In this document: one piece after another, positions 30-52,757 of the stretch
How positions within the stretch are numbered: position 1 is the stretch's first letter
How the letters are laid out: every line of letters begins with the position of its first letter
DNA from: Bradyrhizobium oropedii
GTDB lineage: Bacteria; Pseudomonadota; Alphaproteobacteria; Rhizobiales; Xanthobacteraceae
Direction of reading: 5' to 3'
Length of the DNA: 64,000 nucleotides
Assembly: GCF_020889685.1 (NCBI RefSeq)
Contig: NZ_JACMYO010000002.1
Location: 62,001 to 126,000, forward strand
The notes under the pieces: generated by a model
The model's input: the letters and a program-made list of their open reading frames with translations, nothing else
Told to the model about the DNA's origin: nothing
The model's database searches: none
Position numbers and translations under genes: made by a program

Positions 30-205
30 AAGCCCCATCTGTCGCTGTGCCTGAGAGTATTATCCCGTCGGCGGACGCAATCGGGGAGAACCCCAGCGCC
101 TCTTTCCAGATGTCAGACGTCACGCGGTCCTTTTGCCTGAGAGTTTCCGGGGCGGTTGCTCCTTCGGCGCCGGCCCAGGACAGGGCCAGTCTCTCCCGAC
201 GTGAC
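30..205 (-). promoter_or_regulatory. Tandem glycine riboswitch
   Basis: Read on the minus strand this stretch carries two consecutive glycine-aptamer cores. The first has CGGGAGAGACTG (about 188-199), CGCCGAAGGAGCAA (about 157-170) and CTCTCAGGCAAAAGGACCG (about 125-143). The second repeats the pattern with GGAAAGAGGCG, CGCCGACGGGATAATA and CTCTCAGGCACAG (about 45-115). These are the hallmark conserved blocks of the family. Two aptamers in tandem is the common arrangement and usually switches on glycine cleavage genes (gcvTHP) when glycine is high. The controlled gene lies beyond the left edge, so gcvT is an inference. The element is divergent from alaS. Confidence 0.92.
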
Positions 206-409
206 TACTTACAGGTAGGACCAAAACACGGCCCCGCCAAGGCTGTCAACGCAGCAGGGGCGACTATCAACGGGCTTTGTGCTGTTGCGGCAAGCCCATG
301 ATCCGCCTGCACAGTTTCTGGACACCGCAGCTGGCAATGTCTAAAAGCGTTCGGCCGGAAAATGACGCCTTTTTGCGGCTGGCCGGCCCCTTTTTCCGAT
401 TGGATGAAC

Positions 410-42232: not shown

Positions 42233-42493
42233 TCAGGTCGCGCCGCGGACCGCGCGCCAGGCAAAGATGATCACGCAGGCGCCGATGAAGCCGGCGACGA
42301 GATAGCTGATCCATCCTCCGCCGAGCGATACGCCGAGCAGACCCAACAGCCAGTTCGCCAGCGCGGCGCCGACGATGCCGAGGATGATATTCATGAAGAT
42401 GCCGGTTCCGGTCTTCATGAACATCTCGGCGAGCCAGCCGGCCAATCCGCCGACGATGATTGCGGCGATCCATCCAACTTGAGGGTCGTTCAT
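42233..42493 (-). CDS. GlsB/YeaQ-type stress membrane protein
   Basis: An 86-residue small membrane protein with three predicted helices and glycine-rich motifs typical of the transglycosylase-associated (YeaQ/YmgE) family: IIVGGLAGWLAEMFMKTGTGIFMNIILGI and GIVGAALANWLLGLLG. ATG 42493 is preferred to the upstream ATG at 42514. Such proteins are common stress-induced genes; the role is unclear. It faces purL across the terminator. Confidence 0.88.
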   Translation of the reverse strand: MNDPQVGWIAAIIVGGLAGWLAEMFMKTGTGIFMNIILGIVGAALANWLLGLLGVSLGGGWISYLVAGFIGACVIIFAWRAVRGAT

Positions 42494-42722
42494 CTCGGGA
42501 CTCCCTAGGGTCAAGCAGTCCGGCCAGCATATCTGAGAATCACGTCACTACATGTGACCAATGGCAGGTTGTGCGCAACTTGTCGCCGCGACCGGGCCGG
42601 CGGAATGCGCGCGTGAAGGCCCTGTCGGCCTTGACGGTCCGGAGTGCCATGTGATCTTGCTTGGCACGCTGGGGTTGTTTCGTTCGGGCTATCCCGTTCG
42701 TACCCGCCACTGGAGATGCAAG

Positions 42723-43295
42723 ATGCGGCGGGAAGGACTGGGGTCGTGGCGACGGAGGACGATCGCCGCTGCACCGATCATGCTGACGCTGATTGTCCTG
42801 ACAATGGGATTGTCGGCGCGGGCACAAGACGCCGTCCCGAGTGGAGCAGGAAAAGCAATTCCGGGCTCGCCTGCGTCCCGGGCCCCGAAGGCCGACCTTC
42901 CCCCACCACTCAACCTCGGAGGCGCTGCCGATCGACGCGGCGAGCCGAAATCGTCCCAATCCGACGGCAAATGGTCCGACAGGCGGCGCTGGTCTGGTTA
43001 CGCGTCAGCTCTCAACAAAACGGTGATGGACGCAGTAAACGCGAACAGCGCGGTCAAAACCGCACTCAGCTCCGACTACGTCGAATATGAACTGTGGATC
43101 GATCGGACCGGACGCGTCACGCGCGTCCGACCCATCAAGTCGCTCGGCGACAACGAGCTGGACGCCGCGCTGCGTGACGAAGTCCTCCTCAAGCTGAACC
43201 TCTCGGCGCCGGAGAGCGATATGCCCATGCCGGTCAAAGGGAAAACCGGGAAGATCAATGGCGGGTTTTGGTCGGGGATATCATTGAAGGACTGA
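42723..43295 (+). CDS. Exported protein with TonB-C-like domain
   Basis: A 190-residue secreted or membrane-anchored protein. The start ATG 42723 gives a basic N-terminal stretch followed by the hydrophobic signal IAAAPIMLTLIVLTMGLSARAQ; the open frame runs back to 42561. After a Pro-rich linker, residues 105-180 resemble the TonB C-terminal fold: VEYELWIDRTGRVTRVRPIKSLGDNELD. A real TonB would need an N-terminal membrane anchor with a proline-rich spacer, so this is TonB-like at best. Partners are not seen nearby. The function is uncertain. Confidence 0.65.
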   Translation: MRREGLGSWRRRTIAAAPIMLTLIVLTMGLSARAQDAVPSGAGKAIPGSPASRAPKADLPPPLNLGGAADRRGEPKSSQSDGKWSDRRRWSGYASALNKTVMDAVNANSAVKTALSSDYVEYELWIDRTGRVTRVRPIKSLGDNELDAALRDEVLLKLNLSAPESDMPMPVKGKTGKINGGFWSGISLKD

Positions 43296-43318
43296 GATCG
43301 GCGCCTGTCGAGGGGCGC

Positions 43319-43747
43319 TTACGGCGCTGTGCGCTTGCGCCTGCTTCGCCGTTCAGCGGCCGTGATCAGGATGCGCGGGCCCGGGCCCTGGGCACCGAGC
43401 CGGTCGTCGCCGTTGCGCAGCGGGCAATCGGTCACCGACAGGCAGCCGCAGCCGATGCAGTTGAACAGCTTGTCGCGGAGGTCAGTCAGATCGCTGATGC
43501 GCTGCTGCAGCGCTTCAGTCCAGGCGCGCATCGCGCGCTCCCATTCGCGCATGGTCGGGGCGCGATCGAGCGGGATCGCCGCGAAGGTCTGCCTGATCTC
43601 CTCCAAAGGAATCCCGGCGCGCTGCGCGATCCTGATGACAGCGATGCGTCGCAGCACGCCGCGCATGTAGCGCCGCTGATTGCCGCCGGTGCGCCGGCTC
43701 GCGATCAGCCCCTTGCTCTCGTAGAAGTGAAGGGTGGAAACGGCGAG
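43319..43747 (-). pseudogene. soxR: soxR remnant lacking the DNA-binding N terminus
   Basis: The sequence from about 43747 down to 43319 matches SoxR from the recognition helix region onward: VSTLHFYESKGLIASRRTGGNQRRY, the dimerisation helix, and an intact [2Fe-2S] cluster CIGCGCLSVTDC. The first 14 or so residues of SoxR, with the start and the first part of the helix-turn-helix (LTVGDVARRSG), are missing. The sequence ahead of VSTLHF is RND pump DNA read in reverse. The sensor domain is preserved, but a protein starting here could not bind DNA properly. No start codon with a ribosome site is found. Confidence 0.85.
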
Positions 43748-46084
43748 GACCGGCACCGGCGGCGGAGGCCTGGTGCGGCTCGGCGATGTCGCGACGCTCG
43801 AGATCGGCGGCGAGAATTACGATTCCAATGCGCGCGACAGCGGCAAGCCCACCGTCTATATCGCGGTGCAGCCGACCCCCGACGGCAACCCGCTGGAGAT
43901 CGTCGCCGCCACCGCGAAGGTGATCGAAGATCTCAATCGCGTGGCGCCGCCCGGATTGAAGGTCGCCGACGTCTTCAATATCGTGCACTTCGTCAAGGCC
44001 TCGATCTCAGAGGTTCAGCACGCGCTGGTCGAGGCAATCGCGATCGTCGTGGTGGTGATCCTGCTGTTCCTGGGATCGTTCCGTTCGGTGCTGATCCCGG
44101 TCGTCACCGTGCCGCTGTCGCTGGTCGGCACCGCCGCGATGATGCTGGCGCTCGGCTTCTCCATCAATTTGCTGACCCTGCTCGCGATGGTGCTGGCGAT
44201 CGGGCTCGTGGTCGACGACGCCATCGTCGTCGTGGAAAACATCCATCGCCACATCGAGGAAGGCCTGAAGCCGGGCGACGCGGCCCTGATCGGCGCGCGC
44301 GAGATCATTGGCCCCGTGATCGCGATGACGATCACGCTCGCCGCGGTCTATGCGCCGATCGGCCTGATGGGGGGACTGACCGGCAGCCTGTTCCGCGAGT
44401 TCGCCTTCACGCTTGCGGGCTCGGTGGTGGTCTCGGGCGTCATCGCGCTGACCTTGTCGCCGATGATGAGCGCGCAGCTTTTGGGCGAAGCGACCTCGCA
44501 CGGCCGGTTTGCCCGCTTCGTCGAGCACCAGTTCTCAAAGCTGTCGCGCGGCTACAGCAGACTCTTGGCTGCCACGCTCAAGATGCGTGCAGCGGTGCTG
44601 CTGGTGGCGTTCAGCGTGCTGGCGGCGATCGTGGTGCTGTTCCTCGGCAGCCAGCGCGAGCTCGCGCCGTCCGAGGACCAGGGCTATGTGTTCACCGTGC
44701 TCCGCAATATGCCAGCGTGGACTACACCACGCGCTCCTCCGACCAGATCGAGCAGCTGTTTCGCTCGTTTCCCGAATACCACGCGAGTTGGTTCATCAAC
44801 GGGACCGACGGGCAGAACCATGCCTTCGGCGGCATCACCCTGACCGATTGGGACAAGCGCAAGCGCTCCGCCAACGATATTCAGAACCAGCTCTACGGCA
44901 TGTCCTACGGCGTGCTCGGCGCCAGCGTGACGCCGTTCCAGCCGGCCGCGCTGCCGGCCGCGACCGGCGGCCTGCCGTTCCAGATGGTGGTGCGCTCGGC
45001 GGGCGATTTCTCGACCATCTATCAGGAGGTCGAGACGCTGAAGGGCGCCGCCTGGAAGAGCGGGCTGTTCGCCTTCGTCGACAGCGATCTGGCGTTCGAC
45101 AGTCCGACGGCGCGGATCACGATTGATCATGCCAAGGCCGCCGAGGCCGGCGTCAGCATGCAGACCATCGCCGACACGCTTGCCGTGCTGGTCGGCGAGA
45201 ACTACGTCAACCGCTTCAACTTCTTCGAACGCTCCTACGAGGTGATCCCGCAGGTGCGGCAGGCTGATCGGGTCACCCCCGAGGGGCTCGGAAACTTCAA
45301 CGTGCGCTTGAGCTCGGGGCAGATGTTCCCGCTGTCGACGGTGATCAAGGTCAACGTCAAGCCGGAGCCGAACCGGCTGCCGCAGTTCAATCAGATGAAC
45401 GCGGCGACGATCTCGGCCGTGCTCAAGCCCGGCGTCACCATGGGGCAGGCGGTGTCGTTCATGCAGGCGCAGCAGCTGTCGCCGGGCATGACCGTCGACT
45501 GGCTGTCGGACAGCCGGCAATATGTCCAGGAGGGCAACCGCCTGATCGTCACTTTCGGCATGGCGCTGATCGTGATCTTCCTGGTGCTGGCGGCGCAGTT
45601 CGAGAGCTTCCGCGATCCCCTGGTCATCATGGTGACGGTGCCGCTCGCGGTCTGCGGCGCGCTGCTGCCGTTGTATTTCGGCTTCACGACGCTGAACATC
45701 TACACCCAGATCGGCCTCGTCACCCTGATCGGGCTGATCTCCAAGCATGGCATCCTGATGGTGAGCTTTGCCAACGAGATCCAGCACCATGAAGGGCTCG
45801 ACCGGGTCGCCGCGATCCAGAAGGCCGCCGCGGTGCGCATGCGGCCGGTTCTGATGACGACGGCGGCGATGGTCGCGGGCCTTGCGCCGTTGCTTTATGC
45901 CGACGGCGCCGGTGCGGCGAGCCGCTTTGCCATCGGCATCGTCGTGGTGATGGGCATGCTGATCGGCACGCTGTTCACGCTGTTCGTGCTGCCGACCTTC
46001 TACATCCTGATCGCCCGCGACCACCGCGCAGCAAGCGCACCGCGGCTGGAAAGCGTGGCGGCCAGGGACGAGATCGCGGCGTGA
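43745..46084 (+). pseudogene. RND efflux pump gene, 5'-truncated and frameshifted
   Basis: This is the inner-membrane pump subunit of an HAE1-type RND exporter (AcrB/MexB/MexI family). The sequence begins inside the porter domain (VRLGDVATLEIGGENYDSNARD), so about 250 of about 1,035 residues are gone from the N terminus. The proton-relay VDDAIVVVENIHR is present. At about 44,710 the frame breaks: one frame carries ELAPSEDQGYVFTVL, while the continuation QYASVDYT lies in another frame, so a few bases (not a multiple of 3) were lost. The rest of the gene to the stop at 46084 is good. No adaptor or outer-membrane gene remains. Confidence 0.88.
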
Positions 46085-46087
46085 CCT

Positions 46088-47272
46088 CTACAGCACGTAG
46101 TTGGCGCCCGGCAGCTTGCGCAGCACGGCAGTCAGGGCCCAACTCAGCGCCACGGTGGCCAAGAAGGCGATCGCAGCCTTTGCGATCGCCGGCAGATCCA
46201 TGTCGAACAGCCAGTATTGCAGCCACAGCACGATCGGATAGTGCACCAGGAACATGCCGTAGGCATCGCTCTGCATGCGGTCGAGCAGCGTCGGCCCCGA
46301 TGCCTTCGATTGCAGGAAGTAAGCCAGGATCGCGAACAGGATCGAGGCGCTGAACAGCACGTAGAAGCTGCCGTAGATCGCGAGATACCAGCCCGGCAGC
46401 GGATCGGGGTTACCGATGATCTGGCGCTTGATGTAGATCATCATCCACATCAGCGCATAGGGGATCAGCGTGATGCCGGTCCAGAACCAGCGCCTCTCGG
46501 TCAGCCGTCCGTGCGCGCTAAGCACGCCGCCCTCGAGGTTTGCCGCGCCGATGCCTGCACCAATGAAGAAGTAGCACGCATACAGCAGCACGCGGCTCGC
46601 CTGCACCGAGAACGGTCCGAGCTCAAACCAGTAGTTCTGGCCGTAATGGACCAGCATCGGCAGGTAGGCGGCGGCACTGACGATCACGAGGAACAGCCAG
46701 AACTTCGAGGGCCGCTGGAATCCCTTGATCGACAGCCGGTTGATCGGCTCGAGCAGAGTAGACGACACGCGATACAGCACGCTGGCCGTCAAGTCGAAGA
46801 CCATCAAGACCCAGACGAACCAGATCGGGCCGCTCGGCCACGGCCCGAACATCATGGTCTTCTGCCAGAACTCAGAGAAGGTCAGATCCGGCGTCGCGCG
46901 CAGCGCGATCGCGTAATAGGCGATCGGGATCACGGTGACGGCGCAGACCACAAACGGCAGGCCGAGCCGCAGCAGCCGGTCGCGCAGGAAGATCAGCCAC
47001 GGCTTACGGCCGAGTCCCGGCCAGACGAACAGCCCCGACAGGAAGAAGAACATCGCCATGAAGAAGCTGTCGGTGGCGAGCACCACGCAGTCGAAGCCGA
47101 TCCACGACGTCGGGTCGGTGTGCCCGAAATGGGTGTAGGGGATCACGGCGTGGTGCAGCAGCACGACCAGCGTCAGGAAGGTGCGTGCACGGTCCAGGGC
47201 AAGGTTGCGCTTATGGAGCTTCGGTGCTGCCTGGACGTCGACGGCCGGAGCCGCGTGAGCAATCGATTTCAT
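46088..47272 (-). CDS. Membrane acyltransferase (acyltransferase-3/OpgC type)
   Basis: A 394-residue inner-membrane acyltransferase with about ten helices. The motif [20 protein letters not shown] with the catalytic His is near the start (about residues 25-40), followed by [39 protein letters not shown], which is the family's Arg-containing loop. These enzymes transfer acyl groups to sugars or glycans; the acceptor is unknown. ATG 47272 is preferred over an upstream in-frame ATG (47368). It is convergent with the RND remnant, with only three bases between the stops. Confidence 0.85.
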
Positions 47273-47460
47273 GGTGCCCCCAGCCGGGTCTGCAGCCTGA
47301 TGTTGCAGTCGGGAACCCGATTCAGCAAGGCCCAATTGTCCCGATTCCGGGGTATCGAGGTCGGTCATCTCAGCGCATCTGTTTCGTTTTGGAACCGGGG
47401 TTGGGGGGCGGACGTTATCGGCGGACGCGCAAAGCGCGCGGGGGCTTTGCGGAGCAAGCA

Positions 47461-47634
47461 ATGACACTGTTGAAATGGGCGCTGATCTTCCTGGCTGTAT
47501 CGATCGTCGCGGGCTTGCTCGGTTTCACCGGCATTTCAGCCGCCTCCGCCGACATCGCGCGCTTCCTGTTCTACGTGTTCGTGGTGATCTTCCTGGTGCT
47601 CTTGATCCTCGGGCTCACGATTTTCAGGGTCTAG
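47461..47634 (+). CDS. Small membrane protein DUF1328
   Basis: A 57-residue membrane protein with two hydrophobic helices: [22 protein letters not shown] and [20 protein letters not shown]. It matches the DUF1328 (UPF0391) family in length and pattern. ATG 47461 is the natural start; an upstream extension of the open frame to 47185 overlaps the acyltransferase antisense and is ignored. The function is unknown, often seen in stress-related settings. Confidence 0.9.
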
Positions 47635-51210: not shown

Positions 51211-52464
51211 TCAGGCATAGTCGGCGAGGCGTAACCCCGTGAATTGCCAGCGATGGTGCGGATAGAAGAAGTTGCGGTAGGTGACACGGCTGTGACCGGC
51301 CGGCGTCGCCAGCGACGAGCCGCGCAGCACGAGCTGGTTGACCATGAACTTGCCGTTGTACTCGCCGAGCGCGCCTTCGATCGCGCGATAGCCCGGGTAG
51401 GGCGAATAGGCGCTGCGGGTCCATTGCCAGACGATGCCGTAGGCGTCGTTGAGCAGGCCGGCGCGCGCCGCGACCTCCCATTCCATCTCGGTCGGCAGAT
51501 GCTTGCCGGCCCAGCGGGCGAAAGCGTCGGCTTCGTAGTAGCTGACATGGCAAACCGGAGCCTGCGGATCGATCGGCTGCAGACCGCCGAGCGTCATGAT
51601 CTTCCACTCGCCGTCGATCTCGCGCCAGTGGCCCGGCGCCTGCCAGCCCTCGTTGGTCACCGTGCCGAAGCCATCCATCAGCCACAGCGTGGCGGTGGAA
51701 TAGCCGCCGTCCTTGATGAAGGCGAGCCAATCGGCATTGGTGACGAGGTTTTTCGCGAGCTTGACCGGGCCGACCAGCGCACGATGCGCGGGCTTCTCAT
51801 TGTCGAAATGGAAGCTGTCGTCGCCGTGGCCGACGGTGTGGATGCCTTCGTTGAGTGTCACCCATTCCTCAGGCCCGCGCTGCGATGCCGGGAAGCGCCA
51901 CGCCGGATCGTAGGCCGGCGGGATCGGGTTTTGTGCGAAGGCGTGCAGGATGTCGGTGTACATCAGCTCCTGATGCTGCTGCTCGTGATTAAGGCCGACC
52001 TCGACCAGCGGCACCAGCGCCGCGAGCTGTTCTGTCGGGGCGGTCTGGAAGAATTTCATCACCTCGGCGTCGACATGGCGGCGGTAGGCGGTGACCTCGT
52101 CGGCCGTCGGGCGAGTCAGATGGCCGCGCTGGTGGCGGGCGTGCCGCGGGCCGGCGCTGACGTAATAGGAATTGAACAGATAGGCGTAGTCCGGGTGGAA
52201 CGGCGTGTAGCCCTTGACGTGCTCGCCGAGCAGAAACTGCTCGAAGAACCAGGTGGTATGGGCACGATGCCACTTGGCGGGGCTCGCATCCGGCATCGAC
52301 TGGATCAGCTGGTCTTCCGCCGACAGCGGCGCGGCCCGGCGCTCGGTCTCGTCGCGGACCGCGCGATAGGCATCCACCAGCCGCTGCGCGAGCGATCCGG
52401 ATTCGGAGGACAATGACGGCGGGGTGCCGGGAATGGCGGCCGCGGCAGAGGCTGGTTTCGTCAA
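51211..52464 (-). CDS. egtB: Ergothioneine sulfoxide synthase EgtB
   Basis: Iron enzyme joining hercynine to a thiol (gamma-glutamylcysteine or cysteine) with O2. The 417-residue protein has an N-terminal DinB-like domain with the three iron His residues in AHTTWFFEQFLL and NHEQQHQELMYTDIL, and a C-terminal FGE-sulfatase-like domain (PVCHVSYYEADAFARWAGKHLPTEMEWE). The start is TTG 52464, which has GGAGA six bases before it; the open frame also goes to TTG 52482. egtC and egtE are not in the window, so later steps must be elsewhere. Confidence 0.93.
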   Translation of the reverse strand: MTKPASAAAAIPGTPPSLSSESGSLAQRLVDAYRAVRDETERRAAPLSAEDQLIQSMPDASPAKWHRAHTTWFFEQFLLGEHVKGYTPFHPDYAYLFNSYYVSAGPRHARHQRGHLTRPTADEVTAYRRHVDAEVMKFFQTAPTEQLAALVPLVEVGLNHEQQHQELMYTDILHAFAQNPIPPAYDPAWRFPASQRGPEEWVTLNEGIHTVGHGDDSFHFDNEKPAHRALVGPVKLAKNLVTNADWLAFIKDGGYSTATLWLMDGFGTVTNEGWQAPGHWREIDGEWKIMTLGGLQPIDPQAPVCHVSYYEADAFARWAGKHLPTEMEWEVAARAGLLNDAYGIVWQWTRSAYSPYPGYRAIEGALGEYNGKFMVNQLVLRGSSLATPAGHSRVTYRNFFYPHHRWQFTGLRLADYA

Positions 52465-52757
52465 CGATAATCTCCGATTCAAGGGGAGAACGTTGCTTCG
52501 GTAATCTGGTTCCAGACGGACAGTTCGTCCTAGATAGGGGCTCCGTTACGGGAAAAAAGCCTCCCCCATGATGATATTGGGCCCGTCAGATAATCCCGGC
52601 TCCTTTTGCGGTGCCGTCCGGCCCCCGCCGCATGCCAGATTTCCGCCATTTTGCTTTGGATGCACAATGGTTTGAGCTACATATATAGCCAGTCACGGGT
52701 TAGAAGGGCGGGCCGGCCCGTTAAGGCCTGAGAGCGCCGCCCCCGAAGGAAGCGAAA

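Follow-up and report, generated by a model that had tools for sequence, protein, structure and literature searches.

The window analysed here, a stretch of 64,000 nucleotides that corresponds to bases 62001-126000 of contig 2 in the draft assembly of Bradyrhizobium oropedii (9.04 Mb, 513 contigs), contains the remnants of a soxR gene and of an RND permease gene, and its present state is very probably explained by one deletion in an intact soxR/adaptor-RND locus together with a loss of 7 bases from the RND gene. It is an ordinary gene loss of the deletion type, affecting an efflux locus of patchy distribution. We infer that both remnants are non-functional.

Structure of the locus and the deletion junction

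The closest relatives of the genome belong to Bradyrhizobium, as do the top named loci of the RND gene. Eleven related loci were used for comparison, ten of them from the genus search set of 265 genomes (one per species) and one, that of B. tropiciagri (L065), from the named collection; among the others are the loci of B. pachyrhizi (L142), B. embrapense (L139), B. semiaridum (L031) and B. mercantei (L144), as well as those of Bradyrhizobium sp. C9 and of one uncultured bin. In all 11 of them soxR is divergent from an adaptor gene, which is followed by a full-length RND gene, and the whole set lies between the same two neighbours (Table 1). In the intact locus of G010, soxR and the acyltransferase gene directly flank the adaptor and RND genes; the adaptor passes TIGR01730 (253.3 bits vs the cut-off of 94.9), and the permease matches the PF00873 ACR_tran profile from position 2 to 1020 of 1021. 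Since this intact orthologue scores below the cut-off of NCBIfam RND_permease_2 (NF033617; 1175.4 vs 1250 bits), our claim is limited to the general RND family.

Table 1. Features of the soxR-RND locus in the window (+, forward strand; -, reverse strand; the relatives are the 11 related loci)
Feature	Position	Strand	Remarks
Left anchor: small transglycosylase-associated protein gene (PF04226)	42233..42514	-	same place in 11/11 relatives
soxR remnant	43319..43747	-	from leucine aligned with G010 residue 32 to stop; leader, start codon and upstream region gone
Deletion junction (one base ambiguity)	43747..43748		2036-2145 bp present here in 10/11 relatives, 3598 bp in one
RND permease remnant, part 1	43748..44705	+	from residue 246 of 1026 (G010 orthologue); within ORF 43734-44843
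Second lesion, frame shift	44702..44705	+	7 bases fewer than in 11/11 relatives, short repeated motif
RND permease remnant, part 2	44706..46084	+	other frame, through original stop
Right anchor: acyltransferase-3 family gene (PF01757)	46088..47467	-	same place in 11/11 relatives

The comparison with related strains proposed in the first-pass annotation, which had placed the head-to-head meeting of soxR and the RND gene at about 43,745, recovered the intact divergent order and mapped the ends of the deletion: each of the 11 pairwise comparisons puts the boundary between the halves at 43747/43748, give or take one base. The length of the DNA between these breakpoints in the relatives (the longest variant being that of G150) bears out the single deletion of about 2 kb that the same annotation had suggested to span the soxR start, the promoter, the adaptor gene and the RND start, and no match to the adaptor gene was obtained at the window locus. 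A query of 251 bases across the junction was searched against the 265 genus genomes, with the best two candidate places taken per genome and the counts made among the matches listed. Only the window's own genome gave a single match spanning the junction, and in ten genus genomes the query fell into two separate matches of 85-96% identity; with the 11 compared loci included, the window junction was seen in no other species. Nor is the deletion reported in the titles and abstract openings of the papers listed in literature searches.

Relative to the 1026-residue permease of G010, 245 residues are missing from the RND remnant, i.e., about a quarter of the protein and close to the initial estimate of about 250. 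What is left matches the ACR_tran profile in two pieces, 250-573 and 575-1020 of 1021, lying in different frames. The later frameshift, first noticed near 44,710, proved to be a shortfall of 7 bases at about 44702-44705, which none of the 11 relatives shares and which probably arose by slippage at a short repeat.

As for the regulator, the soxR ORF (43319-43756, minus strand) encodes 145 amino acids, and the product scores 178 bits against TIGR01950 (cut-off 116.9), the match starting at model position 14 of 142 with positions 1-13 missing. The match to PF00376, the MerR-type DNA-binding head, is incomplete as well and begins at position 12 of 38 vs position 1 for the G010 protein. Besides a poorly conserved leader, the missing segment is the part aligned with residues 12-22 of E. 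coli SoxR, which we take to be approximately one helix of the DNA-binding head; the truncation of the head noted in the first-pass annotation therefore stands, while its extent is about one helix plus the leader rather than the first helices. The four-cysteine motif, presumably the iron-sulfur motif of SoxR, is kept in the remnant, and the original remark on the intact cluster part holds. There is an annotation trap here: a TIGR01950 survey would count this headless protein as SoxR, since it still scores above the curated cut-off.

Taken together, these data very probably reflect the following course of events. An ancestral soxR would have faced the adaptor-RND operon across a SoxR-box promoter, and a single internal deletion of about 2.1 kb would have taken away the soxR start, the operator/promoter, the entire adaptor gene and the first 245 RND residues. 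The join of the deletion ends was presumably illegitimate, because the ends have almost no common sequence (one base), and end joining is possible, since the B. oropedii genome has three Ku genes. Either before or after the large deletion, the RND gene would have lost its 7 bases at the short repeat. The outcome would be two pseudogenes, namely a SoxR deprived of part of its DNA-binding head, of its promoter and of the neighbouring operator, and a permease deprived of its amino end and its adaptor. The opposite direction of change, with the window representing the ancestral state and the relatives having gained the adaptor and the gene starts, is so improbable that it can hardly be entertained: the genes are full-length in all 11 relatives, many other genera likewise have full-length homologues, and in an unrooted tree the window branches among the relatives, grouping with G106, G149 and G150 with a support of 0.963. 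The DNA identity between the window and the 11 relatives over the retained part of the RND gene and the acyltransferase gene is 87.9-92.8%.

Some other features of the window are worth recording. About 755 bp of it (42592-43346), located between the gene for the small membrane protein and the end of soxR, occupy the place of about 33 bp in G010; an ORF at 42561-43295 is weakly TonB-C-terminal-like, below the cut-off, and has protein relatives of 41-45% identity in G058 and G002. This extra 0.75 kb was considered as a part of the deletion event and rejected; we treat it as separate, because it is located about 0.4 kb away, past the soxR end. A glycine riboswitch (61.2 bits) was identified at window positions 116-208 on the minus strand.

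Age and completeness of the loss

Substitutions were counted as changes unique to one sequence. On the window branch the remnants bear 5 nonsynonymous and 22 synonymous changes vs a total of 59 and 172 for the 11 relatives, so the proposal that the remnants evolve faster was discarded (no excess of amino acid changes on the window branch, Fisher one-sided P 0.85). In the neighbouring intact genes the numbers are 4 nonsynonymous and 18 synonymous changes for the window vs 70 and 176 for the relatives. The unconstrained expectation is about 72% nonsynonymous changes, and the remnants are far from it (binomial P 1e-8). As they show no amino-acid-change excess, the loss is probably recent, and the genes were probably still working over the greater part of the window branch, whose length in the tree is about 5%. 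Remnants without decay would fit a recent loss, and also an artefact or a retained function.

An assembly error in a strain that carries the intact locus would give the same substitution result, remnants without relaxed constraint, and would agree with the draft state of the assembly (513 contigs); we nevertheless regard it as unlikely. The join is interior to a contig of 138,997 bases, its ends have one base in common, which leaves no repeat to collapse, and the same RND gene bears a second lesion. The flanking genes are syntenic on both sides, and therefore the window is not a chimera of distant regions. Moreover, nothing closely resembling the missing 2.1 kb turned up on another contig or anywhere else in the genome (best 40 of 432 candidate places); within the same limit, the removed DNA had matches of 68% identity, 564 and 276 bases long, and otherwise pieces under 110 bases. 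The best long match, that of 564 bases, lies beside a pump encoded on contig 12, which was rejected as the relocated lost DNA, being just paralogous (68-70% DNA identity; 54% protein identity for the open RND frame and 40% for the open adaptor frame). The SoxR query detected no SoxR in the 10 kb surrounding this paralogous pump.

In the B. oropedii genome the remnant alone exceeds the cut-off of the SoxR model; six other genes match this model, the best of them with 63.7 vs 116.9 bits. Seven places besides the remnant were found with the MerR model (best 150 of 228 candidates), and among nine stretches (L001-L008, L147) the SoxR cysteine motif was present only at the remnant. Since neither a close copy of the lost DNA nor another SoxR over the cut-off was found, the strain looks, judging by its genome sequence, like a natural null for the regulator, the operator, the adaptor and the pump. 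If sequencing reads confirm the deletion junction, Bradyrhizobium would offer a natural null for a SoxR-linked pump that can be compared with close relatives in which the locus is intact. Throughout the genus, SoxR over the cut-off is encoded in 12 of the 265 genomes, the match starting at model position 14 in the window and at position 1 or 2 in the other 11. One of these genomes, G192 (L187), encodes a more divergent SoxR at 54% protein identity, and the 3.4 kb examined there contain neither a pump gene nor an exact box.

SoxR-box-like motifs and a possible residual role of SoxR

A palindrome of 18 bases, CCTCAA-N6-TTGAGG, which we take to resemble the known SoxR box, is located between soxR and the adaptor gene in all 11 relatives. 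It is absent from the window, where no variant with up to 2 mismatches was found in 43001-46100. SoxR homologues are described as binding a similar soxbox (PMC4146615). There are two copies of the palindrome in G150 (L145), where about 1.5 kb extra separates soxR from the adaptor gene and a SoxR-box-like palindrome lies near either end of the extra stretch.

Genome-wide, exact palindromes are rare: besides the copy at the locus, G004 and G003 have none and G010 has one, and a reversed control pattern was found in none of the four genomes searched. The B. oropedii genome contains two exact palindromes, both on contig 44, about 30 bases past the ends of RTX-repeat ORFs. They are situated inside longer stems and have T-rich stretches after them, due to which we read them as terminators and rejected them as SoxR sites. 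The second exact box of G010 lies upstream of a flavodoxin-fold gene (PF02525). On contig 24 of B. oropedii (51659-52661, L189) a flavodoxin-fold reductase gene has a one-mismatch SoxR-box-like motif upstream; this gene with its one-mismatch box is present in B. oropedii itself, G004 and G106 (89-92% and 87% DNA identity), and a full match to the gene and box was not found in G003, G070 and G115. The 19-base core of the contig 24 motif occurs in 12 of the 265 genomes, 6 of them belonging to the 12 that have SoxR over the cut-off and 6 lacking it. As a near-identical motif occurs in species without SoxR, a box-like motif alone is no proof of SoxR binding, and that on contig 24 may be either a second SoxR target orphaned here or the site of something else.

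The production of the truncated SoxR, whether as an iron-sulfur redox protein or as a regulator still acting on other genes, would agree with its intact reading frame and cysteine motif, with the window-specific changes of the soxR remnant (0 nonsynonymous, 6 synonymous), and with the contig 24 box as a possible surviving target. However, six changes are too few for a claim of selection, the remnant has lost its start codon and upstream sequence as well as the part corresponding to residues 12-22 of the E. coli protein, the contig 24 motif may be no SoxR site in view of the 6 genomes that have it without SoxR, and both exact palindromes of the genome are terminator-like; we consider such production very improbable. 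Little more than a speculation, and held by us with great reserve, is a scenario in which the loss of the sensor and pump was favoured in this lineage, for instance, by altered contact with redox-active compounds from plants or microbes, the headless SoxR persisting as an expressed iron-sulfur protein that does not bind DNA, and the flavodoxin-fold reductase gene, as a possible second target, being left without its regulator.

The SoxR-linked pump subfamily and known systems

The neighbours of the RND gene were surveyed in 74 of the 79 named loci with an RND relative (L060-L064 were omitted as copies of loci already used; L065 and L089, also from Bradyrhizobium, are included in the count), and a protein was regarded as a SoxR relative at 50% identity or more. 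Where the RND identity was at least 60%, a SoxR relative was present in the available stretch, in some cases cut by a contig end, in 32 of 48 loci and not detected in the available stretch of 16; where it was below 60%, there was none in 26 loci. The difference between 32/48 and 0/26 supports a link of this RND subfamily to SoxR. In the 32 linked loci the SoxR gene is upstream and divergent (19), upstream on the same strand (2) or downstream on the same strand (11), and one of the downstream loci, L068, has a SoxR relative upstream too. In L067, L069-L074, L076, L077 and L103, which come from Rhodopseudomonas and Magnetospirillum among others, the adaptor-RND genes are followed by a soxR relative in parallel orientation. 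From the box and the gene order we infer that SoxR controlled the pump, whose presumed substrates were redox-active compounds.

As to the closest known systems, the SoxR-linked adaptor-RND loci of Bradyrhizobium have the flanking genes, the gene order and the orientation in common with the window; unlike them, the window lacks the soxR start, the SoxR-box palindrome, the adaptor gene and the first 245 permease residues, and its permease gene is frameshifted. The E. coli SoxR (PDB 2zhg) is homologous to the intact SoxR of G010 through the cysteine motif (E 1.6e-48), and the part aligned with its residues 12-22 is absent from the window copy. A further likeness is that to MexGHI-OpmD of Pseudomonas aeruginosa, a pump of the RND class. 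In non-enteric bacteria SoxR is predicted to target transporters and modifying enzymes (PMC4146615), and the MexGHI-OpmD efflux pump of P. aeruginosa is under activation by its SoxR (PMC8859910). The window-type locus is likened to this SoxR-activated efflux system by description, and whereas activation by SoxR is reported for the P. aeruginosa pump, SoxR control of the Bradyrhizobium one is suggested by the box and the gene order.
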